A program made the position numbers and the translations under genes. DNA of 15,496 nucleotides from Spirochaetes bacterium RBG_16_67_19 (GTDB lineage Bacteria; Spirochaetota; Spirochaetia; SZUA-6; DRHE01): contig MIBK01000074.1 of NCBI GenBank assembly GCA_001829505.1, positions 12,059 through 27,554 of the forward strand, in the 5' to 3' direction. Shown in pieces: positions 152-15,496 of the stretch. The notes under the pieces were generated by a model. It made no database searches. It was not told the DNA's origin and saw nothing but the letters and a program-made list of their open reading frames with translations. Within the stretch, counting starts at the first letter, position 1; each line of letters begins with the position of its first letter.

Positions 152-152
152 A

Positions 153-821: not shown

Positions 822-831
822 GGTAGCCTTG

Positions 832-860: not shown

Positions 861-878
861 CTCGACGGATTGCCGGCC

Positions 879-2036
879 GTGAGCGCGCTGGCGCTGGTGC
901 TGGCGGCCCTGGGCATGGCGCTGCTGTTTTTCGCCCTGATCCCCGGCGTCGGGGCCTTCGGCGTGCGCTGGCAGTGGCGGCTGTTCCGGCGGCGGATGCT
1001 GGAAGCCTCGCTGGCCCCCTTCCTGCGCTACTCCGACCTGGGCGGCGCGGAAGGCCGGCACGGGGATTTCCGGGTCTTCGGCGAGCTGGAGGCCATCCAG
1101 GGGCGGGACCGGATCTGGATCAACACCGGGCAGTTCACGGTGGAGGCGGACCTGGAAGGGGTGCGCCTGTACCTGCTGCCCTCCCTGTCCGGCGGGGGCC
1201 TGCCGGAGCCGCTTCCGGACGAGGAACCGGCGGTGGCCCCCTGGAGCCGGGTGTTCAGCCTGCCCTCCGGGATGCGCCTGTTCATGGGGGGCAGCCTCTT
1301 CCTGGAGGAGGGGCGGGGGGTCTTCCGCTCCAGCCCCGGGACCCCGCTGCTGCTGGTGTTCTACGACGGGGAGCGCGAGAGCATCCTGAAGCGCGCCATC
1401 TGGGGCGGGCGGAAGAGGAACGAGTACTGGAACCCCTTCACCCTGCCCTCCCTGCTCACCGGCTTCCTTTGCCTGGCACTGCTGGCCTACCTTTCCCTGC
1501 GCTCCTCCCAGGCAGGCTTGCCCGGCCTGGCGGTGCTGAGCCTGGCCGCGGCGCCCGCGGCCCCCTTCCTGCCGCCTGGAGTGGCCCTGTACTACCTGTA
1601 CCGCTGGTTCTGGAAGATGGCCCGGCGCCTGCGCGCCGAGCGCGACCTGCTGCGCCTGCCCCTGCGCTATTTCCCGGAAGCGGGGGGTGGGGAGCGCACC
1701 GCGCTGCTGCCCACCGGGGAGCGCTACCTGATGTGCCGCGAGGGCGCGCTGGAGGTGCAGGGGGAGCCGGAGACGCGGCAATGCAGCCGGCACCCGGACG
1801 CCGGGGAAAGCTGGCTTTTCGGGGCGGTGGAGGAGAGCGAGGGGCGGCGCACGCTGCGGCGCCCTGCGGATCCCATGGCCGAGCTGCTGCGCATCCCCGG
1901 GGAGCCTGCCGCGCTGGCCGCCCTGTGCGAGCGCACCGCCCGCTGGTACGAGCTCGCCGCGGCGGCCTGCTTCGCTACGGGGCTGGGGATCAACCTGTTC
2001 GTGGTGCTATTGCTGCTGGCCAGGCTGCTGGGCTGA
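879..2036 (+). CDS. Unrecognised four-helix membrane protein
   Basis: About 385 residues, with hydrophobic helices near 3-25, 189-208, 213-245 and 357-382. A soluble segment (about 30-188) lies between the first and second helices and another (about 246-356) between the third and fourth. The first soluble part has beta-strand-like runs such as FTVEADLEGVRLYLLP; the second holds Cys286 and Cys302. The N-terminal helix followed by a strand-rich domain and more helices recalls, only loosely, GIDE-type membrane proteins; I do not claim that assignment. The GTG at 879 is chosen because GGA at 867-869 could serve as a weak ribosome binding site nine bases upstream. A TTG at 870 is the other option and would add three residues. 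A stop at 855-857 rules out a longer protein. It ends two bases short of the convergent trmB stop. Confidence 0.7.
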   Translation: MSALALVLAALGMALLFFALIPGVGAFGVRWQWRLFRRRMLEASLAPFLRYSDLGGAEGRHGDFRVFGELEAIQGRDRIWINTGQFTVEADLEGVRLYLLPSLSGGGLPEPLPDEEPAVAPWSRVFSLPSGMRLFMGGSLFLEEGRGVFRSSPGTPLLLVFYDGERESILKRAIWGGRKRNEYWNPFTLPSLLTGFLCLALLAYLSLRSSQAGLPGLAVLSLAAAPAAPFLPPGVALYYLYRWFWKMARRLRAERDLLRLPLRYFPEAGGGERTALLPTGERYLMCREGALEVQGEPETRQCSRHPDAGESWLFGAVEESEGRRTLRRPADPMAELLRIPGEPAALAALCERTARWYELAAAACFATGLGINLFVVLLLLARLLG

Positions 2037-2038
2037 GC

Positions 2039-2611
2039 CTACGGCCCCAGCCTGCGGGCCGCGAGGGCGTGCACGGTCCGCCCCTTCTTCGCCAGGAACT
2101 CCCCGTAAACCGAGATGAAGATGTCCCGCCCCGGCCCGGCAGGCAGCAGCTCCAGCCCCGGCTCCAGGATGCAGAGCAGTTTGGCCTGGAGGAAGTAGTC
2201 CAGGAAATCCGTGGCGAAGGCCAGCTCCCCGCCGGGGCGCAGGGTGCGCCGCAAATGGGCCAGGTTCTCGCCGCGCAGGAAGCGCCGGCGGCGATGGCGG
2301 GCCTTGGGCCAGGGATCCGGGAAGTAGATGTGGTAGCGGTCGACCGAGGAGTCGGGCAGGGCTTCCAGGACCTGTTCGGCCGCGGCCTGCAGGATGAAGG
2401 CCCGCTTCAGGCCGCGCCGCTCGATCTTCTGCACGGCCTTGAGGCAGCGCTTGGATTTGAGCTCCACGCCCAGGTAGGCCACCTCCGGGTGGTCCGCGCA
2501 GTAGGCAGCCAGGAAATGCCCGTTTCCGCACCCCACCTCCACCTCCAACGGGCCGGCAGGGGCCAGGGAGGCGAGAAGCTCCGGGAGAGCCTCCAGGGGG
2601 TACGGGTGCAG
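2039..2611 (-). CDS. trmB: tRNA (guanine-N7)-methyltransferase TrmB, probable CTG start
   Basis: Uses S-adenosylmethionine to methylate N7 of G46 in the variable loop of tRNAs. The SAM-binding motif EVGCGNGHFL and the family signature YFPDPWPKARHRRRRF are intact, as is the C-terminal TDFLDYF region. If started at the nearest standard codon (TTG at 2548), the protein lacks the N-terminal stretch before the SAM motif. That stretch is encoded: 21 sensible codons (HPYPLEALPELLASL and onward) run back to a CTG at 2611-2609, directly after the TAG stop of the upstream helicase-like gene and in the same frame. AAGGA at 2623-2619 sits seven bases before this CTG. No ATG, GTG or TTG occurs in those codons before 2548. 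I therefore annotate 190 residues from CTG. Read-through from the upstream gene or a sequencing error in the start codon remain possible. Confidence 0.88.
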   Translation of the reverse strand: MHPYPLEALPELLASLAPAGPLEVEVGCGNGHFLAAYCADHPEVAYLGVELKSKRCLKAVQKIERRGLKRAFILQAAAEQVLEALPDSSVDRYHIYFPDPWPKARHRRRRFLRGENLAHLRRTLRPGGELAFATDFLDYFLQAKLLCILEPGLELLPAGPGRDIFISVYGEFLAKKGRTVHALAARRLGP

Positions 2612-2623
2612 CTACTCGTCCTT
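2609..2623 (-). promoter_or_regulatory. Ribosome binding site supporting the CTG start of trmB
   Basis: AAGGA (2623-2619, minus strand) lies inside the last codons of the helicase-like gene. It is followed by seven bases that contain its TAG stop, and then by CTG. The spacing is ideal for initiation at CTG and would couple the two genes by termination and reinitiation. Confidence 0.5.
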
Positions 2624-4369
2624 CTTGCGGGCGTAGTTGACCGAGATCTGCTTGCCTTTCAGTTCCTGGCCCGAGAGCTCGGCGATGGCCTGCTCGGCCA
2701 GGGCGGAGTCGATCTCCAGGAAGGAGTAGTTGTCCAGGACGCGGATGTCCCCGATCCGGTCGCGGTCCACCCGCAGGGTGTCGCCGAACAGGGCGGCCAG
2801 GTCCTTGGGGTACACCCCGCGGCTCTTGCCCACGCTGATGAACAGGCGGGTGAAGCCCTCTTCGGCGCGGGCCCGCTCGGCGGGAGGTGGAGCGTTGCGT
2901 TCGTCGCCTGTCCCTCGGCGCCGCTGACCCTGGGCGCCGGCGCCCGCGGGGGCGCGCCCTCCCCCCTGGGCCCGCGAGCCCGCCGCGGCTCGGGAGCCCG
3001 CGCCAGCCCGGCCCGCGGCAGGAGCGCGCCCGGTGGCGGGGGCGGGGGTGCGCCCGGCGGCGGGGCGTAAGCCCGGCCCGGCCTGCGGCTTGCGCGCCGC
3101 CGGCTGGGCGCCCAGCGCTCCGTAGACCTGCTTCAATAGATAGGCGGCCACCTCGGCCCGGCGGCCCAGGGGCGCGTGCCGGCGCAGCAGGCGCAGGTAG
3201 CGGGCCAGCTCGGCCGGGTCCTCATCGGACTTCACGCGCCGCAGTATTTCTCCGATCGCTCCGGCCAGTACCTGCTCGTCGTCCGGGAGGGAGGTTTTTT
3301 CTGGTTTCACTTTGAGTTTCTCCTGCAGCTGTTGGTGCTGGGCCGCGGTGCCCAGGCTGATGATCTTCTCCAGCACCACCGAGGTCGGGCGGTAGGTTTC
3401 AGGGGTGGGGGGCGGGTCGGCGTTGAGCACGTGGGTCACCGAGCGCAGGCTGTGCCGCCGCACGGCCTCGAAGGTGCTGACCAGCACGGGGCGCCGGCCC
3501 TCGGCGAACTCGCCGCGGATGCGCTCCTGCTCGGCCTCCCGCATGGCCTCCCAGAGGACCTGGGCCTGGACCCCCCGCGCGGCCAGCTCCCGGCCCAGCT
3601 TCTGGGCGAACTCCTTGCCGGAGACCTGCACCAGCAGGGCGCCGGCCCCCTCGGCCAGGGCCAGCGCGCCCACGGCCCGGGGCTTTTCCGCCTGGGCGAT
3701 CTCGATGAACCACTCCCCGACCTGCTCCTCCGACTGCCTCCAGTCGGCCAGGGACAGGTGCACGGGGCGGTGAAATAGCTCCAGCAGCCCGTCGGCCTCG
3801 GGGCCCAGGGCGCGTGAGAAGAGGAGAACCTGTTTTCGCGTCGGAAGCTTGGAGAAAATGAACTTCAGGTCGTCGGCAAACCCGGGCTCCGGCTCCTGGC
3901 GGTCGATGACCACGCTCTGCAGGAGCGAGAAATCCAGGTTTCCCCGCCGGATATGGTCGATGATCCGGCTGGGGGTGCCAATCAGCACGTCCGGCTGCTT
4001 GGACAGGCTGCGATGCTCGCCCCTGTCCCTTTCCTCCGCGCCCAGCGCGAATACGAACGCGCTCCTGCCCGCCTGCAAGCGGCTGAAACGCTGGAACTCG
4101 CGCTCAACCTTGCGCGAATCCTCCGCGCTGGAGGTAGCAACCACCGCCTTGATCCCGGCTCTCCCTCGCCTGAGCCTGACCAGAATCGGCAGGATGAAAG
4201 CGGCGGTCCTGCCGGTGTCCCCTTCCACCTCCACGACCAGGTCGCGGCCGGCATAGATCAGGGGGACGACCTTGCGCTGCAGAGGCGTCGGCCGGGCGTA
4301 CCCGGCCTTCCGCAACGGCTCCCAAAGCTCCGCACTTCCGAACGAACGATTTCGTTGCTGCGGTGCCAT
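2612..4369 (-). CDS. Degenerate DEAD-box-like protein with DbpA RNA-binding domain
   Basis: A 585-residue protein in three parts. Residues 1-350 have the two-RecA layout of DEAD-box RNA helicases: the Q-motif region ARPTPLQ (25-31) is clear, but motif I reads GDTGRT (50-55) with Arg in place of the Walker A Lys. Motif II reads DRQE (156-159) instead of DEAD, motif III reads SRA instead of SAT, and the HRxGRxxR motif VI is absent after the ADPPPTPETY segment. Residues 421-500 are a low-complexity Ala/Gly/Arg/Pro linker. Residues 505-585 resemble the DbpA C-terminal RNA-binding domain, which in the true family recognises 23S rRNA. I infer an RNA-binding scaffold or chaperone without normal ATP-driven unwinding. 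The ATG at 4369 follows AAGGA at good spacing, and trmB follows immediately. Confidence 0.85.
   Translation of the reverse strand: MAPQQRNRSFGSAELWEPLRKAGYARPTPLQRKVVPLIYAGRDLVVEVEGDTGRTAAFILPILVRLRRGRAGIKAVVATSSAEDSRKVEREFQRFSRLQAGRSAFVFALGAEERDRGEHRSLSKQPDVLIGTPSRIIDHIRRGNLDFSLLQSVVIDRQEPEPGFADDLKFIFSKLPTRKQVLLFSRALGPEADGLLELFHRPVHLSLADWRQSEEQVGEWFIEIAQAEKPRAVGALALAEGAGALLVQVSGKEFAQKLGRELAARGVQAQVLWEAMREAEQERIRGEFAEGRRPVLVSTFEAVRRHSLRSVTHVLNADPPPTPETYRPTSVVLEKIISLGTAAQHQQLQEKLKVKPEKTSLPDDEQVLAGAIGEILRRVKSDEDPAELARYLRLLRRHAPLGRRAEVAAYLLKQVYGALGAQPAARKPQAGPGLRPAAGRTPAPATGRAPAAGRAGAGSRAAAGSRAQGGGRAPAGAGAQGQRRRGTGDERNAPPPAERARAEEGFTRLFISVGKSRGVYPKDLAALFGDTLRVDRDRIGDIRVLDNYSFLEIDSALAEQAIAELSGQELKGKQISVNYARKKDE
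2900..3100. repeat. Low-complexity GC-rich tract encoding an Ala/Gly/Arg linker
   Basis: This stretch consists of imperfect reiterations of GC-rich units that on the minus strand encode repeated AAGR, APA and AGSR-like blocks of the helicase-like protein. It forms a flexible, positively charged, probably disordered linker between the RecA-like core and the RNA-binding domain. Such tracts often vary in length between strains. Confidence 0.65.
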
Positions 4370-4411
4370 ATTTCCTTCGATAGTCCTTTTAAAAGATCAG
4401 GTTTCCCCGTC

Positions 4412-4441
4412 AGGATAGCGTGAAGGCGGGGAGCTTGTCAA
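4412..4441 (-). promoter_or_regulatory. Promoter of the helicase-like/trmB operon
   Basis: On the minus strand a perfect TTGACA (4441-4436) is followed after 18 bases by TATCCT (4417-4412). Transcription would start near 4405, giving a leader of about 36 bases before the ATG at 4369. It carries AAGGA just before the start codon and a short palindrome (CTTTTAAAAG, 4386-4395). Confidence 0.6.
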
Positions 4442-4442
4442 T

Positions 4443-4471
4443 TTGAAATGCGCCCTCGGGGACGATATTAT
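4443..4471 (+). promoter_or_regulatory. Promoter of the OmpA-family gene
   Basis: TTGAAA (4443-4448), a 17-base spacer and TATTAT (4466-4471) match the sigma-70 consensus at five of six bases in each hexamer. AGAGAGG just before the ATG at 4485 serves as ribosome binding site. The -35 elements of this promoter and of the divergent one abut, separated by one base, so the two may compete for polymerase. Confidence 0.65.
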
Positions 4472-4484
4472 TATAGAGAGGTTT

Positions 4485-5705
4485 ATGGTGAAATCCAAAA
4501 TCCCCTTGCCGCTTCTGCTGCTCCCTCTGCTGCTGCAGGCCGCCTTTCCGGCCGCGGGCCAGGCCTTCCGCTTCCAGTACCAAGGCGGGGAGAAATACCG
4601 CCTGCTCACCGAGGTGGAGGAGGAGGTCTGGGTCGACGGGCGGCTGTCGCACCGGGCCGAGATCCTCAACAAGATCTCCGTGGAGACTCTGCAGGTCCGG
4701 GACGGCGCCGGTCAGCTAGCCTGCACCTTCCAGACCTCGGAGCGGGCCTTCGGGGTCGATACCTCCTACGCCTGGGCCGAGGACTACGAGTCGGTGTTCT
4801 GGCGGGACGGGCGCGGCGGCTACGATATCGGAGCCCGCTACTTCATGCCGGTGGTGCGCGACGTGCCCCTGTTCCCCGAAAAGGAGGTGCGCCCAGGGGA
4901 CAGCTGGACCGCGCCGGGCGAGGAGGCCCACGACCTGCGGCGCAGCTACGGCATCCGCGAGCCGGTGCGCTTCCCCATCCAGGTGCAGTACACCTACCGG
5001 GGCAGGGAGCAGCGGGAGGGACGCGAGCTGGACGTGATCGGCATCAGCTACACGGTGTTCCACCGCTTCCAGGGCCTGGGGCCGGGCCGCGGGGCGGTGC
5101 CCGTGCGGGCCAGCGGCCGGTCCGATCAGACTTACTATTGGGACCCGGGCAGGGGCCAGCCGGCCTCCTACGAGGAGAGCTTCGACATCGTCTTCGACCT
5201 GTCCAACGGGCAGAAGGTGGAGTACATCGGCACGGCCCGGGGGCGCCTGCTGGAGTCCGCCGAGCTGGACAAGCAGAAGGTGGCCGCGGACATCCAGAAA
5301 CAACTTGCCGAACGGGGCGTGGCGGACACCTCCGTGCGGGCCGAGGAGGCGGGTGTCACGGTGACCCTGGAGAACATCCAGTTCCAGGCCAACTCCTTCG
5401 AGCTGCGGCCTGGCGAGAAAGCCAAGCTGCGGGCCATCGGGGACATCCTGTCCAAGTACGCAGACCGCGACCTGGCCGTGAGCGGGCATACCGCCCGCGC
5501 CGGATCGTACACCGAAGCGCAGCACCTGGAGCTCTCGGAGCTGCGGGCCCGGGCCGTGGCCGACTACCTGCTGTCCATCGGCGCCGCGCGCGCCTCCCAG
5601 CTCACCTCCCGCGGCTACGGCTACGGCAAGCCGCTGGCCGACAACGCCACGGAGGAAGGCCGGCGCGTCAACCGCCGCGTGGAGATCACGATCCTGGAGA
5701 ACTAG
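4485..5705 (+). CDS. OmpA-family periplasmic/outer-membrane protein, spirochaete type
   Basis: A 406-residue exported protein. Residues 1-27 form a signal peptide (Lys-containing start, Leu-rich core, cleavage probably after AAGQA). Residues about 28-255 are a strand-rich domain starting FRFQYQGGEKYRL, which I recognise only as resembling spirochaete envelope proteins. Residues about 291-406 are an OmpA C-terminal domain with GHTARAG (334-340), LSELRARAV, SRGYGYGKPLADN and NRRVEI. OmpA domains bind peptidoglycan through an Asp in the GHTD loop and an Arg in the LSxxRA helix. Here the Asp position is Ala337 while Arg354 is kept. Spirochaete peptidoglycan often has ornithine instead of diaminopimelate, which could explain the change (inference). 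The ATG at 4485 is chosen because it starts the signal peptide and has AGAGAGG before it; an in-frame upstream start lies inside the promoter. Confidence 0.88.
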   Translation: MVKSKIPLPLLLLPLLLQAAFPAAGQAFRFQYQGGEKYRLLTEVEEEVWVDGRLSHRAEILNKISVETLQVRDGAGQLACTFQTSERAFGVDTSYAWAEDYESVFWRDGRGGYDIGARYFMPVVRDVPLFPEKEVRPGDSWTAPGEEAHDLRRSYGIREPVRFPIQVQYTYRGREQREGRELDVIGISYTVFHRFQGLGPGRGAVPVRASGRSDQTYYWDPGRGQPASYEESFDIVFDLSNGQKVEYIGTARGRLLESAELDKQKVAADIQKQLAERGVADTSVRAEEAGVTVTLENIQFQANSFELRPGEKAKLRAIGDILSKYADRDLAVSGHTARAGSYTEAQHLELSELRARAVADYLLSIGAARASQLTSRGYGYGKPLADNATEEGRRVNRRVEITILEN

Positions 5706-5870
5706 GCCGAGAAAAGGCTGCGTCGATCCCGCGCGGCTTCCTGCATCGGCGCTGCTGGGAGAATCCAGGCGCACATCTTCATGTGATATAGACGCGGCCC
5801 TCCGGCGCCGGCTTTTGTCTCCAGAAGGCGCAGTCTTCGTCCCCGGTGGCTCGTGGGCTGAGGGGTGGCT
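5706..5870. other. Intergenic junction between convergent genes with a weak hairpin
   Basis: No gene is visible in these 165 bases. A bulged hairpin at 5749-5772 (GCGC-tg-CTGG, loop GAGAAT, CCAG-GCGC) could end transcription of the OmpA-family gene, but no T-run follows, so it is weak. CCGGCGCCGG followed by CTTTTG lies further right. Base composition changes across this stretch from very GC-rich to moderately GC-rich, which makes it a plausible edge of the right-hand island. I see no attachment repeat or tRNA. Confidence 0.35.
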
Positions 5871-6209
5871 TCAGTGAGGGGCGAACATCTGGAAGACCGG
5901 CGGGAAGGTGAACATAAAGCCTACGAGCACGAGCAAGCCGGAGATCACCAGCACCCCGGCGAAGTTCGGTTCTTTGCCCTTCCACGCCCGCCCGAGAATG
6001 ACCCAGCTCACCACCCAGGCGATCAGGGCCACGGATGTCTTTCCGCTCAGCGGCCCGACGGCCTTGAACCACACCAGCGCCCCTCCCAGGGCCTGACTGA
6101 ACTCCGCTCCGACCGTGGCCAGGCCCAGCACCGCGGCGCCTATGCCCGCTGAGAGAAAGGCTGCCGCGGCCGCGCCTCTCGGTCTCTTTAGCTCGCTTGT
6201 CTCTGTCAT
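5871..6209 (-). CDS. Small three-helix membrane protein of unknown function
   Basis: A 112-residue protein with hydrophobic helices near residues 14-36, 57-73 and 82-102, joined by the segment VGPLSGKTSVA and by the polar loop GRAWKGKEPNF. It ends with FTFPPVFQMFAPH. I recall similar small membrane proteins from other bacteria with the GPLSGKT and FPPxF segments, but I know no function for them. GKT here is not part of a P-loop fold. The ATG at 6209 follows GAGGAG at good spacing. It is the last gene of the leftward operon, 17 bases after the preceding gene, and that preceding gene also encodes a membrane protein, so the two may form a complex. Confidence 0.8.
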   Translation of the reverse strand: MTETSELKRPRGAAAAAFLSAGIGAAVLGLATVGAEFSQALGGALVWFKAVGPLSGKTSVALIAWVVSWVILGRAWKGKEPNFAGVLVISGLLVLVGFMFTFPPVFQMFAPH

Positions 6210-6226
6210 GAAAGTTCTCCTCGATT

Positions 6227-6760
6227 CTATATCACCGGCGCCGTCTTGGTGATGAAGGCGCCAAGAACCCCTGCCACTGCCGCCGCCGCAAAGGAGACCA
6301 GCGTGGTGACTACCACGGTCCAATTCAGGACCAGGGAATCCTTCAGGCCTCTGCCGTACCTCCAGACCACTGCCGCCGCCGCTGTAGCCAGAATGGGCGA
6401 TATCCAGGCCACGTGCTCCTTCCATTCCATGCCAAAGGTGTGCCAGGCTTCTTTGCCCGCGTTTGCCAGAAGAAAGGATCGCGCATACATGGTCAACTCT
6501 GTTGTGCCCGCAGGCGGCGCAGCGCGATACCAGGGATAGGAGACGTAGGTTCCGATGAAAACCGCCACCCAGGACAGCACGGCCACGATCGCTGTAGCTG
6601 TCTTGAGCAGGGCGACATTGCGCTGCACACCCTCCGGTGTCAGGAGCCTGGATCTCAAGGTGAATAACAGGGCGAGGGTCCCAGTATAGAACATGATGAA
6701 CCCGAAACCCATCATAGTGCCGTGGACTGCCGTCCACGCCTCCCTGATAGTGAACATCAT
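6227..6760 (-). CDS. Four-helix membrane protein with conserved-looking His/Trp segment
   Basis: A 177-residue protein with helices near 14-34, 51-74, 117-134 and 145-170. Between the second and third helices lies a non-cytoplasmic or surface segment with YVSYPWYRAAPP and then AWHTFGMEWKEHVAW (residues 105-119). His13, His107 and His116 sit at helix ends, where they could bind heme or a metal; this is inference. The size and topology recall small heme-copper-oxidase-associated or cytochrome-like membrane proteins, but no family motif settles it. The ATG at 6760 follows AAGGGGAA; a second ATG follows directly. It lies 61 bases after the DUF2933-type gene and 17 bases before the next membrane gene. 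Confidence 0.8.
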   Translation of the reverse strand: MMFTIREAWTAVHGTMMGFGFIMFYTGTLALLFTLRSRLLTPEGVQRNVALLKTATAIVAVLSWVAVFIGTYVSYPWYRAAPPAGTTELTMYARSFLLANAGKEAWHTFGMEWKEHVAWISPILATAAAAVVWRYGRGLKDSLVLNWTVVVTTLVSFAAAAVAGVLGAFITKTAPVI

Positions 6761-6821
6761 GGCATTCCCCTTTCCAATTGCATAGAAAGCACGAAGACTG
6801 GTCTGGTGATGTCAACGCCGG

Positions 6822-7085
6822 TCACTGCGCATCTTTCGTATCATCCCCGGGAGGCTGGGCTCCCTGGCCGCCGTGAGCGCCATGCCCGCCATGTCCTCCG
6901 TGCATGAAGACGTGCATAAGGGGGCAAAGCAGAAATGCGGCGTAAGGAAGCAGAGGCAGCAGGCGGGACAGGTGAGCCTTGTGCGCGATGAGGGTCAGGG
7001 TGCCTGCGGCGGCGACCGCGACTCCCAAGACGATGATCACTGCGCGTGGCGAAAGCCACGGCGCTGAAACTGCAATTCTTTTCAT
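6822..7085 (-). CDS. DUF2933-type small membrane protein with His-rich tail
   Basis: An 87-residue protein with two hydrophobic segments (about 13-34 and 42-60). The second ends in LLCPLMHVFMHGGHGG, followed by a tail with His62, His65, His68 and His71. This pattern (CPLMH plus a repeated HGG tail) is characteristic of DUF2933 proteins, often found beside copper or other heavy-metal resistance genes. A role in binding copper at the membrane is likely but unproven. The ATG at 7085 is preceded by GGAGGAATC, a strong ribosome binding site lying inside the end of the upstream gene. The start overlaps the upstream stop as ATGA, so the two genes are translationally coupled. Confidence 0.85.
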   Translation of the reverse strand: MKRIAVSAPWLSPRAVIIVLGVAVAAAGTLTLIAHKAHLSRLLPLLPYAAFLLCPLMHVFMHGGHGGHGAHGGQGAQPPGDDTKDAQ

Positions 7086-8035
7086 GATTCCTCCGCGAGG
7101 CCGCCCGCTTTCTCTTGCTGCATTTGATAGGTTCCCTGCGTGCACAGCAGGCAGTAGGCGGTGAATGGTAATGCCACCAGTTCGCACAACGGCTCCCGCC
7201 CGCTCAGGGCACCGCGTATTCTGGTAGAAGAGGTTTTCAGCGGCATTTGCTCGATCCAGCGAACGTCGAGGAAGCTTGCGAGCGATTCGCTGCAGTCTCC
7301 CCGGTCCAGGAAAACGACAGACAGCCAGCGAGTCCGGGGGTCGAAGCCGTGAATGGCATTGCGCACCCCCTCTTCCAGCCTCTGGATGGTGTCGGGATGC
7401 CCGCTCTGAGGCGTGAAACGGTGGCAGTGGTCGCTCCCAGCCAGGTAAAAGGCATGCAGCGGCCGGGCGCCGTGGGAGGACATGATCCGGAAAATGTTTA
7501 CCTCCCCCGGTAGCGAGCTGCCTAGAGCGATGGGAGAATACTCGAAGAGCGGGTGGAAAATCCGGAGCACCTGTTGTGCGACCTGGTGGCGAAGGACCGC
7601 AGAGGCCAGCTCGGGCTTTCGAGGATCGCTCCCGGCGATCACAAACAGGACCTTGTCCAGACAGAATCGCTCCATCGCGGCCAACCCGCTCATGAGATGG
7701 GCCCAGTGCAGCGGGTTTGCGGCGATCGGAAAGACTCCTAGCCGCAAGGGCCGGGCGGCCCGCTCATGAGGCCCCGCAATGCCTGCAGGCTGAATGAACC
7801 CCAAGGCCGATAGTTCTCCGATGCGTTGCAGCGCCGAGTGGACCCATGTTTGTACCGCCTGGAATGTGTTGGAGTCTGCATGCCATCCCAGGGCTTCCTG
7901 CATCCTGGTTAGCTCGAAGGCGACCTTCCTCGCGATTGCTTCTGTCAAAGGCTCGCCCGGGGCCGGCAGTTTTGCGGGCCCGCCGCTCCACGCCGGCGCG
8001 CCGGCCTCTTGCAGCACCGCAGCGTATTCACTCAT
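7082..8035 (-). CDS. NadD-like nucleotidyltransferase of uncertain substrate
   Basis: A 317-residue protein. Residues 97-280 have the cytidylyltransferase/NadD fold: GVFPIAANPLHWAH (100-113, the nucleotide-binding motif with His110 and His113), FVIAGSDPRK, FYLAGSDH and TSSTRIRGAL (268-277), matching the ISSTxIR signature. NadD joins nicotinate mononucleotide and ATP to make the dinucleotide of NAD synthesis. This member differs from housekeeping NadD (about 200 residues): it has an extra N-terminal helical region of about 95 residues and a C-terminal CLLC pair (Cys295, Cys298), so the substrate may differ. The ATG at 8035 has no visible ribosome binding site and lies next to a -10-like TATAGT, suggesting a leaderless messenger. 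It is first in the leftward four-gene operon. Confidence 0.8.
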   Translation of the reverse strand: MSEYAAVLQEAGAPAWSGGPAKLPAPGEPLTEAIARKVAFELTRMQEALGWHADSNTFQAVQTWVHSALQRIGELSALGFIQPAGIAGPHERAARPLRLGVFPIAANPLHWAHLMSGLAAMERFCLDKVLFVIAGSDPRKPELASAVLRHQVAQQVLRIFHPLFEYSPIALGSSLPGEVNIFRIMSSHGARPLHAFYLAGSDHCHRFTPQSGHPDTIQRLEEGVRNAIHGFDPRTRWLSVVFLDRGDCSESLASFLDVRWIEQMPLKTSSTRIRGALSGREPLCELVALPFTAYCLLCTQGTYQMQQEKAGGLAEES

Positions 8036-8042
8036 GGACTTG

Positions 8043-8071
8043 ACTATAGAATGCTTCCGGATCCGAGAGGG
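8043..8071 (-). promoter_or_regulatory. Probable activator-dependent promoter of the leftward operon
   Basis: TATAGT (8048-8043, minus strand) matches the -10 consensus at five of six bases and would start transcription about at the ATG of the NadD-like gene (8035). The -35 position at 17-base spacing reads CCCTCT, with no consensus, as expected if an activator is needed. The first base of the -10 lies 55.5 bases from the centre of the inverted repeat at 8094-8113. Confidence 0.45.
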
Positions 8072-8093
8072 AGCGCTGTTATGCGGGTACTGG

Positions 8094-8113
8094 CATAGGC
8101 ACTTTGGCCTATG
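8094..8113. promoter_or_regulatory. Inverted repeat, candidate regulator binding site 1
   Basis: CATAGGC, a six-base spacer and GCCTATG form a perfect 7-bp inverted repeat in the 149-base gap between the divergent NadD-like and response-regulator genes. Aligned on its centre, it matches the repeat at 10584-10603 at 15 of 20 bases, and both share ATAGGC/GCCTAT arms. NarL-type regulators bind as dimers to such repeats. The neighbouring response regulator is the natural candidate, which would make it autoregulatory. Confidence 0.6.
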
Positions 8114-8135
8114 GCGGGGAGGGCTCTGCGTAGCC

Positions 8136-8164
8136 TTGCCTGCAGAAAGTGGATACCTTATTGC
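8136..8164 (+). promoter_or_regulatory. Probable promoter of the two-component operon
   Basis: TTGCCT (8136-8141), a 17-base spacer and TATTGC (8159-8164) give a weak sigma-70-like promoter with a leader of about 14 bases before the ATG at 8185. The -10 again begins 55.5 bases from the centre of the inverted repeat at 8094-8113. An overlapping TATATG at 8165-8170 is a rival -10 with better consensus but no matching -35. Confidence 0.4.
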
Positions 8165-8184
8165 TATATGTCGCCGGTAGGCAG

Positions 8185-8883
8185 ATGAAAATGAAACGTT
8201 CACGGTCCTCGCCCTCTGCTTCCCCGATTCGCGTTGTGCTTGCCGACGATCACTCGGTCGTCCGCGCCGGCATCCGCAAGATCCTGGAGACCGCACCGGA
8301 CATCAAAATCGTGGCAGAGGCTAATGATGGTCAGCAGGCGATCGAGGCGATCGCTGCGGCCAGGCCGGACGTAGCCGTGCTGGACGTGAGGATGCCGAGG
8401 TCCAGTGGCATCGATGCCACGCGATGGATTCGGGCGAACGCCCCCAAGACCGCGGTGCTCGTGCTTTCTGCTTTTGACGATGATCCCTTTGTCCTCGCCG
8501 TACTTCAGGCCGGGGCCAATGGGTACGTGCTGAAAAGCGCGGACGCGGAGGATATCGTCCTCGCGGTGAGGAAGGTCCATGCCGGGAAATCCGCCCTTGA
8601 TCCGGAAATCGCCCGGAAAGTGCTCAAGAGTCTAAGCGGCGCCCAAAGCTCCTCTCAGCAGCAAGGACCGTCAGCCCGCGAGCGCGAGATCCTTGCCCTC
8701 GTCTCGCAGGGGCACACCAATAAGGCTATCGGATCTGCGCTTCAGATCAGCCCGCGTACCGTTCAGGGTCATTTGGCGAAAATCTTTGACAAACTGGGCG
8801 CGGAGAGTCGCACGCAAGCGGTAATGCGCGCTATTTCCTTGGGTTGGCTTACCACCCTCCAGGGTGGCGAGCCTGACGAGTGA
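8185..8883 (+). CDS. NarL/LuxR-family response regulator
   Basis: A 232-residue DNA-binding regulator. Residues 15-135 are a receiver domain with the acidic pair D21-D22, phosphoacceptor D67 in VLDVRMP, S95 and K117, all conserved. Residues about 163-225 are a LuxR-type helix-turn-helix (SAREREILALVSQGHTNKAI, then ISPRTVQGHLAKIF). It should be phosphorylated by the kinase encoded next, with which it overlaps by four bases (GTGA). The ATG at 8185 is chosen because an upstream GTG at 8149 lies within the promoter. An ATG at 8191 has better spacing to GGTAGG (8176-8181) and may be the true start. Probable targets are the two inverted repeats flanking this gene pair. No signal-specific motif shows what is sensed. 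Confidence 0.92.
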   Translation: MKMKRSRSSPSASPIRVVLADDHSVVRAGIRKILETAPDIKIVAEANDGQQAIEAIAAARPDVAVLDVRMPRSSGIDATRWIRANAPKTAVLVLSAFDDDPFVLAVLQAGANGYVLKSADAEDIVLAVRKVHAGKSALDPEIARKVLKSLSGAQSSSQQQGPSAREREILALVSQGHTNKAIGSALQISPRTVQGHLAKIFDKLGAESRTQAVMRAISLGWLTTLQGGEPDE

Positions 8884-10568
8884 AGCCGTTCCTCGGCGGT
8901 CTGCTGCTTCGTCTCTTTACTTCTATCCTTCTTCCTTTCAGTATCCTGTTATTCGGCTTCGCAGTCGCCGCGATTTCTGTCCATGAGAATGCCATGCGCG
9001 GACTCGTGGCTGAGCGTGACGCGCGCTCCGCTCGCGCGGCTGCCGCTGCCATGTCCGAGCTTCTGCTTCACCGGAGGATCGCGGTCCGCGATCTAGCGCT
9101 TCGGCTGGAAGACGGGATAGCAGCCCAGGAGGTGATCAAGGAAGGCGAGCCGATTGCCCACAGTTTCGACGAAGGCCTTGCGGTGGTGAGTCGAAACGGC
9201 AAGATCCTTGCAGGCTCACTATCCCCATCGCTAATAGGCTCCCCCTTGTTCAGGCGCGCTCTGGCCTCTTTGAAGAGCGAAGCGGAAAGCAGCCATTCCG
9301 TGTTCATGGTTGATGGAGGGTTGATTACGACCGCCGTCCCAGCGGGTGGGTCGCTGCTCGTTATGGGTTTTTTCTCTGCTAAGGAACTGCTCTTATTCGC
9401 TCTTCCCGACCTGGATTCGCCCCCGATGAGAGCCAGTGCGGTGATCGTGGATCCGCAAGCAGGCGTTCTGGCGAACATCGGTGCCCTGCCATTGGAGCCG
9501 GATTACAGAGATCATGCCGGGATTCGTGCAGCCATGGAAGGGAAATCCGGCTCCTCCCTTGTAAACTCTGCGAAAGGCGAAGAACACGTCTTGGCTTTCA
9601 GTCCAATTTCGTATGCAGGATGGGTCCTCTTGATAGAGGAGCCCTGGCACAGCGTGGCCAGCCCTTTGCTAAGGCTTTCGCTCTCGTTTCCTCTGGCCCT
9701 GGGGCTGGCTTTGGCCATCTCGCTGTTCGGGCTGTGGTTTGCCTCCAGGCGGATCGTTCTGCCGCTTCGCCGGCTTCAGCAGGTGTCGCTCAAGCTCGCT
9801 GCTGGCGATTTTGAAGCTATCAATGTGAAGGTGGGTGGCGTCCAGGAGGTAAGGGACTTGCAGAACAGCATGGCGGTGATGGCCCGGCGCATTCACCATG
9901 CCCAGCAATCGCTCCGGCGATATATCGGCGAGGTGACTGTCGCTCAGGAGGAAGAACGGCGGCGGCTGTCTCAAGACCTGCACGACGAAACCATTCAGGA
10001 TCTCATTGCCCTGGACCAGAAGATCCAGCTGCTGGCCAGGTCGCCTGGCAGGGGAAAAAGACCGAAGATCACGGGGTTGCAGGAAATCCATCAAGCTGCT
10101 CAAGAGGTGATCCAAAGAGTCCGGCGCCTTTCACGCGCGCTGCGGCCTGCATATCTAGAAGACCTCGGCCTTATGCCCGCATTGGAAGCTCTATCGCAAG
10201 ATGTGGGTTCGTCGCTCGGAATCCCTATAGTCATGCGGGTCGTGGGTAGGCTGCGGCGGTTATCCCACGATGCGGAGCTGGCCATCTATCGGATAGTTCA
10301 GGAGGCGCTTGCCAATATCGCGCGGCACGCGGCAGCGCGCCACGCCTGGATCGTCCTGCGTTATGGCAAAGAGGGGCTTCAGGTGATCGTGAAAGACGAT
10401 GGGTCGGGATTCACTCCGCCACCTGAACCAGCTGAGCTTTCTCGTTCGGGGCATTTCGGCCTGATCGGCATGCGCGAGAGGGCGCAGTACATCGATGCTC
10501 GCGTTGAAGTGCACTCTGCTCCTGGGAAGGGAGCGCGTGTGACCATCTGCCTTCCTTTGCCGAAATAA
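8880..10568 (+). CDS. Membrane sensor histidine kinase, HisKA_3 (NarL-partner) type
   Basis: A 562-residue inner-membrane kinase. A first helix (about 13-34) and a second (263-288) enclose a periplasmic sensor of about 225 residues that looks like a double-Cache-type domain by length and by segments such as GLAVVSRNGKILAGS and AVIVDPQAGVLANIG. A HAMP region (about 289-342) and a short coiled coil lead to the dimerisation helix with phospho-acceptor His368 in LSQDLHDETIQDL. The ATPase domain shows the N-box EALANIARH (475-482), G1 DDGSGF (506-511) and HFGLIGMRERA (525-535). It starts at GTG 8880, overlapping the regulator stop. The sensor has no His- or Met-rich copper motif, so copper is not an evident direct ligand; a small organic or redox-related signal is as likely. 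Confidence 0.92.
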   Translation: MKPFLGGLLLRLFTSILLPFSILLFGFAVAAISVHENAMRGLVAERDARSARAAAAAMSELLLHRRIAVRDLALRLEDGIAAQEVIKEGEPIAHSFDEGLAVVSRNGKILAGSLSPSLIGSPLFRRALASLKSEAESSHSVFMVDGGLITTAVPAGGSLLVMGFFSAKELLLFALPDLDSPPMRASAVIVDPQAGVLANIGALPLEPDYRDHAGIRAAMEGKSGSSLVNSAKGEEHVLAFSPISYAGWVLLIEEPWHSVASPLLRLSLSFPLALGLALAISLFGLWFASRRIVLPLRRLQQVSLKLAAGDFEAINVKVGGVQEVRDLQNSMAVMARRIHHAQQSLRRYIGEVTVAQEEERRRLSQDLHDETIQDLIALDQKIQLLARSPGRGKRPKITGLQEIHQAAQEVIQRVRRLSRALRPAYLEDLGLMPALEALSQDVGSSLGIPIVMRVVGRLRRLSHDAELAIYRIVQEALANIARHAAARHAWIVLRYGKEGLQVIVKDDGSGFTPPPEPAELSRSGHFGLIGMRERAQYIDARVEVHSAPGKGARVTICLPLPK

Positions 10569-10583
10569 GATCCAACTCTCGCC

Positions 10584-10603
10584 AATAGGCAGAATTGCCT
10601 ATG
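10584..10603. promoter_or_regulatory. Inverted repeat, candidate regulator binding site 2
   Basis: ATAGGCA (10585-10591), spacer GAAT and TGCCTAT (10596-10602) form a perfect 7-bp inverted repeat in the gap between the kinase gene and the copper operon. It is related to the repeat at 8094-8113 and lies 55.5 bases from the first base of the -10-like TATGTT at 10649-10654, the same geometry as at the leftward promoter. As an RNA hairpin it has no following T-run, so a terminator is unlikely. Confidence 0.6.
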
Positions 10604-10625
10604 CCTTGCTCAGCAAAATGGCGCT

Positions 10626-10654
10626 GCACCGCTGCGGTGCGTGCAGGCTATGTT
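10626..10654 (+). promoter_or_regulatory. Probable promoter of the copper operon with hairpin over the -35
   Basis: TATGTT (10649-10654) is the -10-like element. The -35 position at 17-base spacing reads GCACCG, without consensus, which fits activator dependence. That hexamer is the left arm of a perfect inverted repeat, GCACCG-CTG-CGGTGC (10626-10640), which could be a second operator or a chance GC-rich hairpin. Transcription would start near 10661, and AGAGGA at 10662-10667 is the ribosome binding site. Confidence 0.45.
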
Positions 10655-10672
10655 AGCGGGTAGAGGAACCAA

Positions 10673-11041
10673 ATGAGAGACCGGCTGATCCTGGCCATCC
10701 CCTGGCGTGAGCTTACCCGCAACATGACCCGCCGACTGAGCAGCAGGGGTCTCTCGGTTCGCCGCACATTTGATCTTCAAGAAGCCCGTCGTTCTTTAGA
10801 AAAAGGCAGAGCGGCATCCGGCGCTCTCCATGGGTCAGGCCAGTACCTCGTGCTGCAGGTCCGCTGCGGCAAGGACTCGGCAACGATGGTGGTACGCGGT
10901 GATGGCAATAACACTGAAATCACCCTCCTGAGGGCCGATGACTCAGAAGGCAGAGTCGCCTCTGAAGTCTACCTGGGAATAAAGCTAATGCTTGTAGATC
11001 CCGTTTGCGGAATGCACCTGAGATCCCGGAGGGCGCGATGA
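10673..11041 (+). CDS. Small protein ending in DPVCGM metal-binding motif
   Basis: A 122-residue soluble protein, first gene of the copper operon. Residues 1-42 ([29 protein letters not shown] region) suggest an alpha/beta unit in which a strand is followed by an amphipathic helix and a second strand. The middle ([10 protein letters not shown] to EITLLRADD) looks strand-rich. The C-terminus carries DPVCGM (109-114), the Cys-containing motif known from YHS domains and the N-termini of some copper ATPases. I recall small proteins of this layout beside P-type ATPases in other phyla but know no function. A role as copper carrier or accessory to the ATPase is inferred. AGAGGA precedes the ATG at good spacing. 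Its stop overlaps the copA start as ATGA. Confidence 0.75.
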
Positions 11042-13575
11042 CAAATCCTGCGAAGACAATCGATTTCGCATTTTCCGCAACCACAGGTATCGACCCGGAT
11101 GCCAAGGTAGTGCGAATCGACATACCGATCTACCAAACTCCCGCCGGGAAAAACGGCGTCTCTTTGGAAGGGGCGATTCGGGGAGCAAAGGGAGTACGCC
11201 GGGTGCTCTTCAACGCAACCACAAGGAATCTCGCGATTTGGTATCACACAGAACAAACTGGCGCCGCAAGGCTATACCAGGCGGTTCGAGCGGCAGGCTT
11301 CGAAACGGGCACCAACAGCCTGCGCCTGCGGATTCGGGGGATCTATTGCGCGGGCTGCATAAGTCAGATCGAGGAGTGCTTGAGGAATGTGGCCAGAGTA
11401 GAGGCCGCGATGTTCAATCCTGCCACCTCCGAAGCGGTCATCGAGTACTGCGTGGGGGTTGCGGACTTGGACCTCCTGGAGCACGCCGTCGATTCCCTGG
11501 GTCTGTACCGCGCAGAGCCTGCTTCGGGGGATAGCCCCGAAGAGGCGCGTCGGGAGCGGGACGACGCGGAAACGGAATATCGCACACTCATGCGCAAGTG
11601 GTGGTTCGCGGCGGCCTTTGGCATCTTCTCGATGATCTTCTCCTTTCCTCAACTCTTTCCTTTTCTTCGCGATTTGCTCCCCAGGGGGAGCATGAACTTA
11701 CGATACCTCTGGATGGCAATGGGCGTAGCCTCGCTGGCGGTTATTTTCTATAGCGGCAGCCAGTTCTTCTCGGCCATGTGGGAGTCCCTAAAGCACCGCA
11801 CGGCCAACATGCACACCCTGATCGCTTTAGGCACAGGCGTGGCCTGGATTTATTCCACCATTGCTGTTTTGTTTCCCAAGGTTTTCCCTTCAGCGGGAAT
11901 GGCTGAAGTGTATTACGACGTCACCATCGTGGTCACCGCCCTGGTGGTCTTGGGACTCGCCCTGGAGGTGAAGGCCAAGGGCCGGACGAGCGAGGCGATC
12001 AAGAAGCTGATCGGGCTGCAACCCAAGACCGCGCGGGTGATCCGAGGCGGCCAGGAGGTGGATATCCCGGTCGAGGAAGTGCGGGTCGGAGACACCATTA
12101 TCATGCGGCCCGGCGAAAAACTGCCAGTCGACGGGGTGGTGGCGGCAGGGAGCTCGGCGGTTGATGAATCGATGATCACCGGCGAGAGCCTCCCCGTGGA
12201 AAAAAGGCCAGGAGACGAGGTGATCGGGGCCACGATAAACAAAACCGGATCCTTTCAGTTCCGGGCCACGAAGGTGGGTAAGGATACGGCGCTGTCGAAT
12301 ATCATCCGCATGGTCAAAGATGCTCAGGCGACCAAGGTCCCCATCCAGCGCATCGTGGACGTGGTATCCAGCTACTTCACTCCAGCGGTGATCATCCTGG
12401 CAATATCCGGATTCATCATCTGGTACAACTTCGGACCCCAGCCGCCGCTGGTCTACGCGCTGATCATCGCGGTGACCACGCTGATCATCGCCTGCCCCTG
12501 CGCTCTGGGCATGGCTACACCGATGTCGCTGACCACGGGAATCGGTCTGGGGGCGGTGAACGGAATCCTCATCCGCGGCGGGGAGTCGCTGCAAACGGCC
12601 AAGGAACTGAAAACCATCATACTGGACAAGACGGGCACAATCACCTACGGCAAACCCGCTCTCACGGACATGCGGGCTGTCGGCATCGAGGAACCGGAAC
12701 TATTGCGGCTTACGGCAGCCGTCGAGAAAGGCTCGGAGCACCCCCTGGCCGCGGCGATCGTCGAAGCCGCCCAGTCACGTGGGATCCAGATCCCCTCCAC
12801 CGAGAGCTTCAACGCCATCCCCGGTTATGGCGTGGAGGCATCCGTGGAGGGTCGGAGCCTGCTGCTGGGCAATCTGCGCCTGATGAAGCAGAAACAGATC
12901 GCCGTGGGAACCCTCGAATCGCAGGCGCTGCGCTTCGCGGATGAAGGGAAGACCCCGCTGTATGTGGCCCTGGATGGAGCGCCGGCAGGTCTGCTCGCCG
13001 TAGCCGATACCGTGAAGCAAGACTCCGCCCAGGCGATCGGAGCTCTGCGGCGGATGGGAATCGAAGTGGTGATGATCACCGGCGACAACGAGAGGACGGC
13101 GCGGGCGGTGGCCAAACAGGTGGGCATCGAACGGGTGCTCGCCGAGGTGCTGCCCCAGGACAAGGCACGCAACGTACAGAGGCTGCAGCAGGAAGGAAAA
13201 AAGGTGGGGATGGTCGGGGATGGAATCAACGACGCTCCGGCTTTAGCGCAGTCGGATGTCGGCTTCGCGATCGGCACCGGGACTGATGTAGCGATCGAAG
13301 CCAGCGACATCACCCTCATCAAGGGAAGCCTCCAGGGAGTGGTCACCGCCATCCAGATCAGCCGGGCAACGATGAGGAATGTGTACCAGAACCTCCTCGG
13401 CGCGTTCCTGTACAACACCCTCGGCATCCCGATCGCGATGGGCCTTCTCTACCCTTTTTTCGGCATCCTGCTTTCGCCGCTCTTGGCGGCTGCCGCGATG
13501 TCTTTCAGCTCGGTGACCGTCATCAGCAACGCGAACCGCCTGAAGCTGTGGAAAGCGAAAGGAGCGAGCAAATGA
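11038..13575 (+). CDS. copA: Cu+-transporting P1B-type ATPase
   Basis: An 845-residue inner-membrane pump that moves Cu+ out of the cytoplasm at the cost of ATP. Diagnostic motifs are all present: TGES (381-384), CPC (486-488) in the ion channel, phosphorylated Asp530 in DKTGT, SEHP (566-569), GDGIND (727-732), and the Cu+-type residues YN (792-793) and MSFSS (821-825). Eight membrane helices are expected. The N-terminus has two heavy-metal-domain-like units: one near 25-90 lacks CxxC, the other near 93-160 has CAGC (104-107). The ATG at 11038 follows GGAGGG and overlaps the preceding stop. A TTG at 11005 in frame is less likely. It may export excess copper, or load copper onto the cupredoxin encoded next, as slow CopA2/CcoI-type pumps do for oxidases; the sequence does not decide. 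Confidence 0.95.
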
Positions 13576-13949
13576 GCATGGATCGGATCATCGTAACCCT
13601 GGGCGGCCTGGGGGCTATCGCTTTCGTCGTCTGGTTTTTCTGGCTCGGGAAGCGTAAAGCCTCGAGGGCTGCCGTGGCGGCCTCGGGGATGCAAGAGGCG
13701 ATGGTCGTGGTCCGAGGTGGCTACACGCCCGACCTGATCGTCGTAGAGCACGGCAGGCCCGTGCGGTTGACGTTCCGCCGAGAGGAGACGGCCTCCTGCT
13801 CGGAAATGGTCCTTCTGCCCGACTTCCATAAGTCCGCCATGTTGCCCCAAGGCGAGGTGGTACCCATCGAGTTTCTTCCGGAAAAGCCGGGGGAGTACGA
13901 GTTTCACTGCCAGATGGGCATGTTCCGTGGAAAGCTGATCGTGGAATGA
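13572..13949 (+). CDS. Membrane-anchored cupredoxin-domain protein
   Basis: A 125-residue protein with an N-terminal membrane anchor (residues 6-25, followed by GKRKASR, so the C-terminal domain faces the periplasm). Residues 44-125 form a cupredoxin-like beta sandwich of the Cupredoxin_1 (EfeO-type) class. Likely copper ligands are Cys76 in ASCSEM, and His112, Cys113, Met115 and Met117 in FHCQMGM. The combination with Met residues suits Cu+ binding or delivery more than a classical blue-copper electron carrier, whose ligands are two His, Cys and Met. It starts by ATGA overlap with the copA stop, with GGAG upstream (13561-13564). An ATG two codons later is possible. Its place directly after copA suggests it accepts copper from the pump on the outer face. 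Confidence 0.88.
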
Positions 13950-15496
13950 AAATACCAAAGGCACCGTCGCACAGCAGCATCTGGTTGGCCCTGCCATCCG
14001 TGTTTCTTATCACTTACGCCGTGCTGACCTTCGAGGTCGCCCTCACGCGAATCTTCTCCGTGATGCTGAGCTACCATTTCGTTTTCGCGATTGTGTCCGC
14101 AGCACTTCTAGGTCTCGGGGTGGGCGCCATGCTGCTGAAACGATGGCGCGGGCTGCGGATATCGTCCGCTTCGCGAGTTGGGGCCATCCTGTTTCCGCTC
14201 CTGATCGTTGTCTCCGTCCTGTTGATCATCACCTTGCCGCAGGTCACCTCCAGAGGCTTCTGGATCTATTTGGTGCTGGCTGTTCTGCCGTTCGCAGCGG
14301 CGGGGTTCGCCGTCTCCGGCATCTTCCAGCAGTTCGCGGACAAGAGTCCCCTCCTCTATGGGGCGGATTTGCTGGGAGCGGCCCTGGGAGCGCTGACCAT
14401 CGTGCCGCTCCTCGACGTTTTCGGCGGGGTGAACGCGGCGTTCTTCGCCGCCTCCGCGGCAGCGCTCGGTGCGCTTCTACTGGGTTTCTCCAGTGCTAAG
14501 TTTCCAGCGCTTACGTTGGGCGCCTTCCTCCTCGTGACCGCGTCTTTCGCCGCGATCACGGGCTCAAAGATAAAGTTCATCGTCCCGGTAACCAATGACC
14601 AGTACAAAGAAATGTACAGCATGCTCAGCAACCCTGAGTACAAGGCTGAAATCGTGGAAAGCCGTTGGAGCTCATTCGGCCGAACCGACCTGGTGAAAAG
14701 CGAGCTCTTCCCCAACGAAATGACTCTCTTCGTGGACGGCGCAGCCCCTTCCACGATGTACAACCTCAATGCCATTCTGAAAAGCCCGGAAGAAACGGCC
14801 CACTTGACCATGCATTTCGGCGAGTTCTTCCCGTTCTTCTTTATCAGCGACGAGGAAAAAAGGAACGCCTTGATCATCGGACCCGGCGGCGGCCGGGACG
14901 TAGTCGTGGCGATTCTCGGCGGGGTCAAGGCGATCACCGCCGTAGAAGTAAACCCCGATGTCGTCAAGATCGTGAGAGATTATCAGGACTATAGCGGCGG
15001 CATCTATTCGAGCAATCCCAACGTCCAGGTGGTAATCGAGGAGGGAAGGAATTTTGTACGCAAAACAGACCAGCGCTTCGACCTGATCATGCTCTCCATC
15101 CCGGTGATCCGAAGCTCGCGCAGCGTCGAAGGCTATGCCCTGACCGAGAACTATCTTTTCACCGTAGAGGCCTTCGATGACTACTTGAGCCGCCTCACGG
15201 CGCAAGGCCGGATAATAATCGTGGTTCACAATAACGCGGAGCTCTATCGGATTGTTTCTTTGGCCGCCGCGGCCTTGGGAAAACGGGGCAGCACCGAGGC
15301 GGAAGCATTGAATCATATCTACACGGTCGGCTCCGACATGAAGCCGGCGATCGTCATCAAGAACCAGCCCCTCACAGGCGCAGAGGCGGCGCAGGTCCAT
15401 GATGGCATGCACAGAATGGGTTTCGACAAGGGAGCCTTTTTCATTCCCTATGTGAAGCAGGCTGCGGTCAGACCCATCGATCGGATCGGGGAGGGC
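13946..15496 (+). CDS. Membrane-embedded spermidine-synthase-like protein (3' truncated)
   Basis: The frame runs from ATG 13946 (overlapping the cupredoxin stop as ATGA) through the window edge without a stop; 517 residues are visible. Residues about 12-205 hold roughly six hydrophobic segments. From about 235 the protein resembles the spermidine synthase/methyltransferase Rossmann fold: IIGPGGGRD (310-317) for the nucleoside ligand, acidic Glu334 in AVEVNP, and EGYALTENYLFTVEAF near 395-410. Spermidine synthases have an Asp-rich catalytic loop after the fourth strand (DxxDP). Here that place reads FDLIMLSIPVIRSS, so ordinary polyamine synthesis is unlikely. Such membrane SpeE-like proteins are widespread but mostly uncharacterised. 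Fourth gene of the copper operon; a role in modifying a small molecule or metallophore-like ligand is only speculation. Confidence 0.85.
   Translation, partial: MKIPKAPSHSSIWLALPSVFLITYAVLTFEVALTRIFSVMLSYHFVFAIVSAALLGLGVGAMLLKRWRGLRISSASRVGAILFPLLIVVSVLLIITLPQVTSRGFWIYLVLAVLPFAAAGFAVSGIFQQFADKSPLLYGADLLGAALGALTIVPLLDVFGGVNAAFFAASAAALGALLLGFSSAKFPALTLGAFLLVTASFAAITGSKIKFIVPVTNDQYKEMYSMLSNPEYKAEIVESRWSSFGRTDLVKSELFPNEMTLFVDGAAPSTMYNLNAILKSPEETAHLTMHFGEFFPFFFISDEEKRNALIIGPGGGRDVVVAILGGVKAITAVEVNPDVVKIVRDYQDYSGGIYSSNPNVQVVIEEGRNFVRKTDQRFDLIMLSIPVIRSSRSVEGYALTENYLFTVEAFDDYLSRLTAQGRIIIVVHNNAELYRIVSLAAAALGKRGSTEAEALNHIYTVGSDMKPAIVIKNQPLTGAEAAQVHDGMHRMGFDKGAFFIPYVKQAAVRPIDRIGEG

Follow-up and report, generated by a model that had tools for sequence, protein, structure and literature searches.

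The 15,496-nucleotide stretch of DNA analysed here (the window; positions 12,059 to 27,554 of contig MIBK01000074.1 from Spirochaetes bacterium RBG_16_67_19) carries a two-component pair flanked by two operons. The pair consists of a NarL/FixJ-type response regulator (8185..8883, + strand), whose receiver (PF00072) and GerE (PF00196) domains both score above the Pfam cut-off, and a membrane histidine kinase (8880..10568, + strand) of the architecture HAMP-HisKA_3-HATPase (PF00672, PF07730 and PF02518, above cut-off); the two open reading frames (ORFs) overlap by 4 bases. On the left lies a leftward operon and on the right an operon that includes a CopA-type copper P1B-ATPase. We consider it likely that the NarL/FixJ-type system runs a small copper regulon, in which tandem operator sites would serve to activate the leftward and the copper units. 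The proposal is built from sequence: from the operators and their geometry, from their return in relatives beside members of the kinase family, and from the copper genes that the related loci contain.

Each of the two gaps flanking the pair holds a palindrome. Palindrome 1 (8095..8112, unstranded) reads ATAGGC-ACTTTG-GCCTAT within the 20-mer CATAGGC-ACTTTG-GCCTATG (8094-8113, centre 8103.5), and palindrome 2 (10585..10602, unstranded) reads ATAGGC-AGAATT-GCCTAT within AATAGGC-AGAATT-GCCTATG (10584-10603, centre 10593.5); identical copies of the 18-mer of palindrome 2 occur in three related loci (L095, L101 and L105). A first-pass annotation of the window had placed two related 20-base sites here, and direct reading confirms both, with 15 of 20 bases in common. 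The 7-bp arms that it gave them apply to site 1, and site 2 has 6-bp arms, its outer pair being mismatched (A/G). The search pattern that it put forward, ATAGGC-N8-GCCTAT, was mistaken in its spacing: the real spacing is N6, and a search with N8 at up to two mismatches finds neither site. Exact ATAGGC-N6-GCCTAT is present in two copies in the organism's own genome (3.8 Mb, 84% complete), at sites 1 and 2 only, and at up to two mismatches the palindrome shows no enrichment there (55 matches, against 73 for the reversed control).

Three -10-like hexamers each begin 55.5 bases from a palindrome centre, as the earlier annotation had noted: TATAGT before the leftward operon (8043..8048, - strand) and TATTGC before the regulator gene (8159..8164, + strand), both measured from palindrome 1, and TATGTT before the copper operon (10649..10654, + strand), measured from palindrome 2. 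The TATTGC coincidence is a weak one. The structural operons do lack a -35 consensus, as had also been claimed: at spacers of 15-19, no more than 2/6 positions of TTGACA are matched in the leftward promoter and no more than 3/6 in the copper promoter. Both of these promoters carry a second, proximal element, GC-ATAACA-GCGCT in the leftward one (8072..8084, - strand) and GC-AAAATG-GCGCT in the copper one (10613..10625, + strand), each 24 bp centre-to-centre from its palindrome, each agreeing at 7/7 positions with the element found in relatives, and each giving with its palindrome an exact match to the composite operator. A third, upstream half-site that is seen in relatives was looked for at the window promoters and is not present. 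When the first -10 base is counted as -12, the predicted start positions put the palindrome centres at about -67.5 and the proximal elements at about -43.5. The position near -67, read earlier as that of a class I activator, describes the palindrome but is incomplete: the second conserved element lying 24 bp closer, at about -43.5, means that this is not a single-site arrangement. The ATG of the first leftward gene begins 7 bases past its -10-like hexamer (8033-8048), so that, should both assignments hold, the leftward mRNA would have no leader.

The relatives used for comparison come from an Anaerolineae-type class, of which 396 genomes were sampled, centred on the L035 genome. Full-length kinase relatives in this class reach 44% identity, and 121 of the 396 genomes contain a kinase match at E <= 1e-60. 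Closer full-length kinases, at 54-91% identity, occur among metagenome proteins. From the 40 best-scoring kinase matches we took 40 surrounding loci (579 kb), which were picked by kinase and blind to the motif. The pattern ATARGC-N6-GCYTAT occurs in these loci 36 times exactly and 75 times at up to one mismatch, compared with 0 and 5 for the reversed control. Other spacers gave no exact match at 4, 5, 7 or 8 bases and, at up to one mismatch, 3, 1, 0 and 5 matches, respectively. The spacer bases of the palindrome are themselves near-palindromic (approximately MAWWTK), and some lineages carry variants such as ATACGC. Of the copper ATPase promoters in L088, L089, L094, L098, L103 and L110, several (for example those of L094, L098, L103 and L110) have an additional half-site or site some 24 bp farther upstream than the palindrome, and half-sites there therefore repeat about every 12 bp.

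It is conceivable that the equal spacings arose by chance, the palindromes being repeats or RNA hairpins with no promoter role, and a 15.5-kb window does contain many weak -10-like hexamers. This explanation is contradicted by the distances in relatives. In 115 non-redundant flanks, a TATAAT-like hexamer lies 54.5 bp from the palindrome centre in 38, at 53.5 in 12 and at 55.5 in 5, with at most 6 at any other distance. The spacing noted in the first pass thus holds generally, with the window one base off. Counted by site, 68 of 77 (the window's two included) show such a hexamer at 53.5-55.5, 6 of them on both sides, and 9 have it on neither side. Divergent promoters perhaps share the two-sided palindromes (L080:4528, L095:2268, L096:15928, L098:4437, L102:7230 and L103:4497). 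Coincidence, which we regard as very improbable, is also contradicted by the proximal element and by the fact that the composite matches exactly twice in 3.8 Mb.

Alignment of the flanks revealed the proximal element in relatives as a weaker motif, GC-N6-GCKCT, on the -10 side, with 24 bp between its centre and that of the palindrome. At least 5 of its 7 positions are matched on 33 of 51 promoter sides, compared with 4 of 58 other sides. Over 112 sides its offset is 24 in 34 cases, 23 in 10 and 25 in 3, against a total of 31 matches spread over 93 other offsets. In 34 of 35 non-redundant promoters (26 + 6 + 2), the -10 moves along with the proximal element; because loose bounds on both parts had been used to preselect these promoters, the informative result is the shared shift and not the presence of the parts. 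By the same numbering, the centres in relatives fall at about -66.5 for the palindrome and about -42.5 for the proximal element, and no conserved -35 was found in the aligned promoter flanks. If the -10 assignment is right, the proximal element would lie at the -35 position, and it is this element that gives the palindrome its direction.

We scored the window with a promoter matrix trained on relatives only, taking 100 base-shuffled windows as the control. The copper promoter scored 46.1 and the leftward promoter 41.5, and the back of site 2 scored 10.8; the maximum among the shuffled windows was 12.05. The first-pass annotation had proposed one regulon of three units, with the regulator's own promoter activated along with the two operons. 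Several observations favor this wider version: TATTGC stands 55.5 bp from site 1, where the spacing fits, with TTGCCT (4/6 to TTGACA) upstream of it at a spacer of 17; the composite pattern is recognizable on the regulator side at three mismatches; and in three related loci (L079, L081 and L083) a composite promoter has the regulator gene as its first gene. The regulator side, however, scored 12.1, level with the maximum of the shuffled windows, with subscores of -8.5 for the proximal part and -3.4 for the -10 part. Its proximal element agrees at 4/7 positions, a level that 12 of 58 non-promoter sides also reach. In the own genome, the composite operator has two exact matches, both in the window and facing the leftward and copper operons, and at three mismatches it occurs on the regulator side and at one unrelated place, with one match for the reversed control. 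From the scores and the composite matches, the leftward and copper units are therefore supported and the regulator unit is not. Activation of all three units appears unlikely; autoregulation may occur in some relatives and is not supported in the window.

The composite operator was compared with the distribution of the kinase family. At up to one mismatch it gave 74 matches in 24 of the 396 Anaerolineae-type genomes, compared with 6 for the reversed control. A match was present in 17 of the 121 kinase-positive genomes and in 7 of the 275 others (Fisher p = 3e-5), and 66 of the matches were in kinase-positive genomes, compared with 8 elsewhere. Among the 67 of the 74 matches that were listed, 52 are no more than 25 kb away from a related kinase, 7 lie elsewhere in such genomes and 8 in kinase-free genomes; 4 of these last 8 have near-identical letters and were taken for a conserved coding stretch. 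It is thus supported that the palindromes in relatives are promoter elements at a fixed spacing to the -10 which go with the kinase family, as judged from their sequences.

These counts bear on whether the palindromes might be bound by some other protein, such as a CsoR-, CopY- or MerR-like copper sensor or a different NarL regulator, with the two-component pair as a bystander. Anaerolineae-type genomes are rich in HisKA_3-type kinases and in further NarL-type regulators, and binding of the window's regulator to its operators is predicted only. The composite sites nevertheless track the kinase family and lie mostly beside it, and the regulator gene itself comes first behind a composite promoter in the three loci named above. 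Furthermore, contigs of two members of the window's order (14.7 and 15.6 kb) that carry a copA-cupredoxin pair, with CopA at 56% identity, and in which no matching kinase or regulator was found, have no site at up to one mismatch; at two mismatches, three loose matches occur in L187. A palindrome centre some 55 bp upstream of the -10 also does not suit a repressor or a MerR mechanism. We judge a different binding protein to be quite unlikely.

The genes behind the operators point to copper. First genes were assigned at 67 composite promoters of relatives (near-duplicates kept) and at the window's two by a simple ORF rule, so that some assignments are probably wrong; among these 69, the families were YHS (13), HMA (12), Cu-oxidase_2 (11), E1-E2 ATPase (10), cupredoxin (6), DsbD_TM (6) and response regulator (3). 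In the presumed sensor part of the kinase, H35, M39, H64, H212 and H236 are kept in 90-99% of 111 relatives, and these conserved His and Met residues would fit metal sensing without proving it. With the same operators and the same regulator, the signal could instead be redox state, nitrogen oxides or oxygen, the copper genes then serving copper oxidases. Related loci do hold genes for cytochrome c oxidase subunits I-III, a multicopper oxidase and disulfide handling, with cytochrome c oxidase genes lying downstream of the palindrome in L089, and several kinase homologues have a dCache domain (PF02743). The DevR system of Mycobacterium tuberculosis, with which the present one is compared below, answers hypoxia (PMC3029386, in excerpt). 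Against a signal other than copper, copper ATPase, YHS, HMA, multicopper oxidase and cupredoxin are the commonest first-gene families, and the sensor part has its conserved His and Met residues. Such a signal is possible, but we think it rather doubtful. The multicopper oxidase of L094 had been considered as a nitrite reductase, an assignment that we dropped; its best solved relatives are two-domain laccases.

Several observations weigh against a copper regulon run by the NarL/FixJ-type system. At up to one mismatch, 104 of the 121 kinase-positive genomes have no composite match and 14 of the 40 loci have no palindrome; many of the kinases in these genomes and loci are probably paralogues. The palindrome alone (exact ATARGC-N6-GCYTAT) is found in 122 of the 396 genomes, mostly in 0-3 copies, like the reversed control, and a clear excess is limited to a subset of genomes (11 versus 0 in G089, 12 versus 1 in G285 and 6 versus 1 in G210). 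The everted form, GCYTAT-N6-ATARGC, has 3 exact matches in the 40 loci and 20 at up to one mismatch; these are largely extra half-sites beside copper ATPase promoters. In both window promoters the -10 lies one base farther out (55.5) than in most relatives (54.5). Neither first gene of the window operons matches a copper family in Pfam, and a tblastn search of the 40 loci with the leftward operon genes gave nothing at E <= 1e-6; it is the promoter match that would place this operon in the regulon.

Taking the copper regulon as our preferred reading, binding by the window's regulator, cooperativity, activation and copper as the signal are the parts that we infer. Most likely, a dimer of the phosphorylated regulator would occupy the strong symmetric palindrome near -67.5 with high affinity, and a second dimer would then probably bind cooperatively to the weaker element near -43.5, where a -35 would lie. 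We infer cooperative filling of the weak site here because the same arrangement is reported for DevR targets. The proximal dimer and the -10 would form a rigid unit that recruits RNA polymerase to promoters lacking a -35, switching on the leftward NadD-like, DUF2933 and membrane genes and the rightward small-protein, CopA and cupredoxin genes. The signal would probably be copper in the periplasm, or else something connected with copper enzymes.

The copper operon begins with a small protein (10673..11041, + strand), behind which come CopA (11038..13575, + strand), a cupredoxin-domain protein (13572..13949, + strand, PF13473) and a spermidine-synthase-like protein (13946..15496, + strand) that continues past the window end. 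The small protein is distantly related to a 117-amino-acid Cys-rich protein (BLAST E 1.4e-6, set of 67), the Cys cluster of which it lacks, and the Cys-rich protein is the first gene product behind 9 of the 67 composite promoters of relatives. Its C-terminus (10990-11041), DPVCGM followed by nine residues, resembles the start of a YHS domain and is encoded just 5' of CopA; the CopA proteins of several relatives carry a fused YHS domain at their front. The leftward operon comprises a first gene (7082..8035, - strand) whose product is weakly NadD-like, under curated cut-offs, a gene for a DUF2933 protein (6822..7085, - strand) and two for hydrophobic proteins without an assigned family (6227..6760 and 5871..6209, both - strand). 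The regulator has no OmpR-type output domain among its Pfam matches, its output domain being GerE. Its nearest solved relative is VraR, followed by DevR (3c3w), and among the best 25 of 101 NCBIfam models, all under cut-off, MadR ranks first (178.6 against a cut-off of 300).

The distribution of the system suggests that it may have been acquired. The GC (guanine plus cytosine) content is 69% in 1-5708 and 60% in 5871-15496, and this drop suggests an acquired segment. No full-length kinase relative was found at E <= 1e-20 in 60 relatives from the own phylum, and none was found on plasmids (E <= 1e-40) or viral contigs. Among 392 own-phylum genomes, the composite at up to one mismatch gave only the window's two matches and two one-mismatch matches, which we took for chance; tblastn found no gene of the window cluster in the 3-kb loci around these two (L150 and L151). 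The window and the relatives seem to belong to different phyla, as the own-phylum sample showed no member of the 395 other genomes of the Anaerolineae-type class (G063-G457). The window's CopA shares 65-67% identity with the full-length proteins of L088 and L110, 57-59% with several others of that class and at most 57% with those in the 60 own-phylum relatives. Because these identities overlap, the claim of transfer is weakened, and horizontal transfer of the module is plausible on the sequences compared. We tentatively entertain, as possible and no firmer than that, a joint reading in which a copper-sensing NarL branch with its own operator code (a strong palindrome and a weak proximal site, 24 bp apart and rigid to the -10) crossed a phylum boundary together with its targets and promoters. 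The window lineage would have kept the code with one extra base between the proximal site and the -10 of each promoter, as though adjusted to the polymerase of this lineage, and would have recruited a local operon.

Among the titles and abstracts listed from the open-licence literature, we found no description of the motif or of an Anaerolineae copper regulon. The closest parallel in promoter design is the DevR/DosR regulon of M. tuberculosis, which has a NarL-subfamily regulator, as here, and whose DevR is the second-nearest solved relative of the window's regulator. The DevR box consensus is unlike the operator described here, and the DevR/DosR kinases sense through GAF domains with heme, whereas the present kinase has HAMP and a presumed periplasmic sensor. 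DevR targets carry a high-affinity site and an adjacent low-affinity site, filled cooperatively, of which the start-proximal one overlaps the -35 (PMC3029386, in excerpt). Judged by sequence conservation, the present promoters likewise have a strong site and an adjacent weaker one nearer the start; unlike in DevR/DosR, the spacing is fixed at 24 bp and the genes are those of copper and not of dormancy. The combination of a receiver and a GerE domain is shared with NarL/NarP, LiaR/VraR, MadR and MctR, and the 7-2-7 arrangement of NarL heptamers is not the operator found here. CusR-type regulators are of the OmpR/PhoB type. In function, the system resembles CusRS, CopRS and PcoRS, in which a membrane kinase and a regulator stand over copper efflux and multicopper oxidase genes (PMC10141476, in excerpt). 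It has the same kind of membrane kinase and regulator pair, with putative copper targets judged from promoter content, but differs from them in that its regulator has a LuxR-type GerE output domain.

Taken at this strength, two short repeats become a readable promoter code, from which direction and targets can be assigned in lineages that are mostly known through assembled genomes. A NarL-type system would be given a likely copper function; the copper two-component systems known to us use OmpR-type regulators. The DevR-like two-site promoter design would be present in quite different bacteria, and the module may be a case in which a regulator, its operators and its targets moved together.

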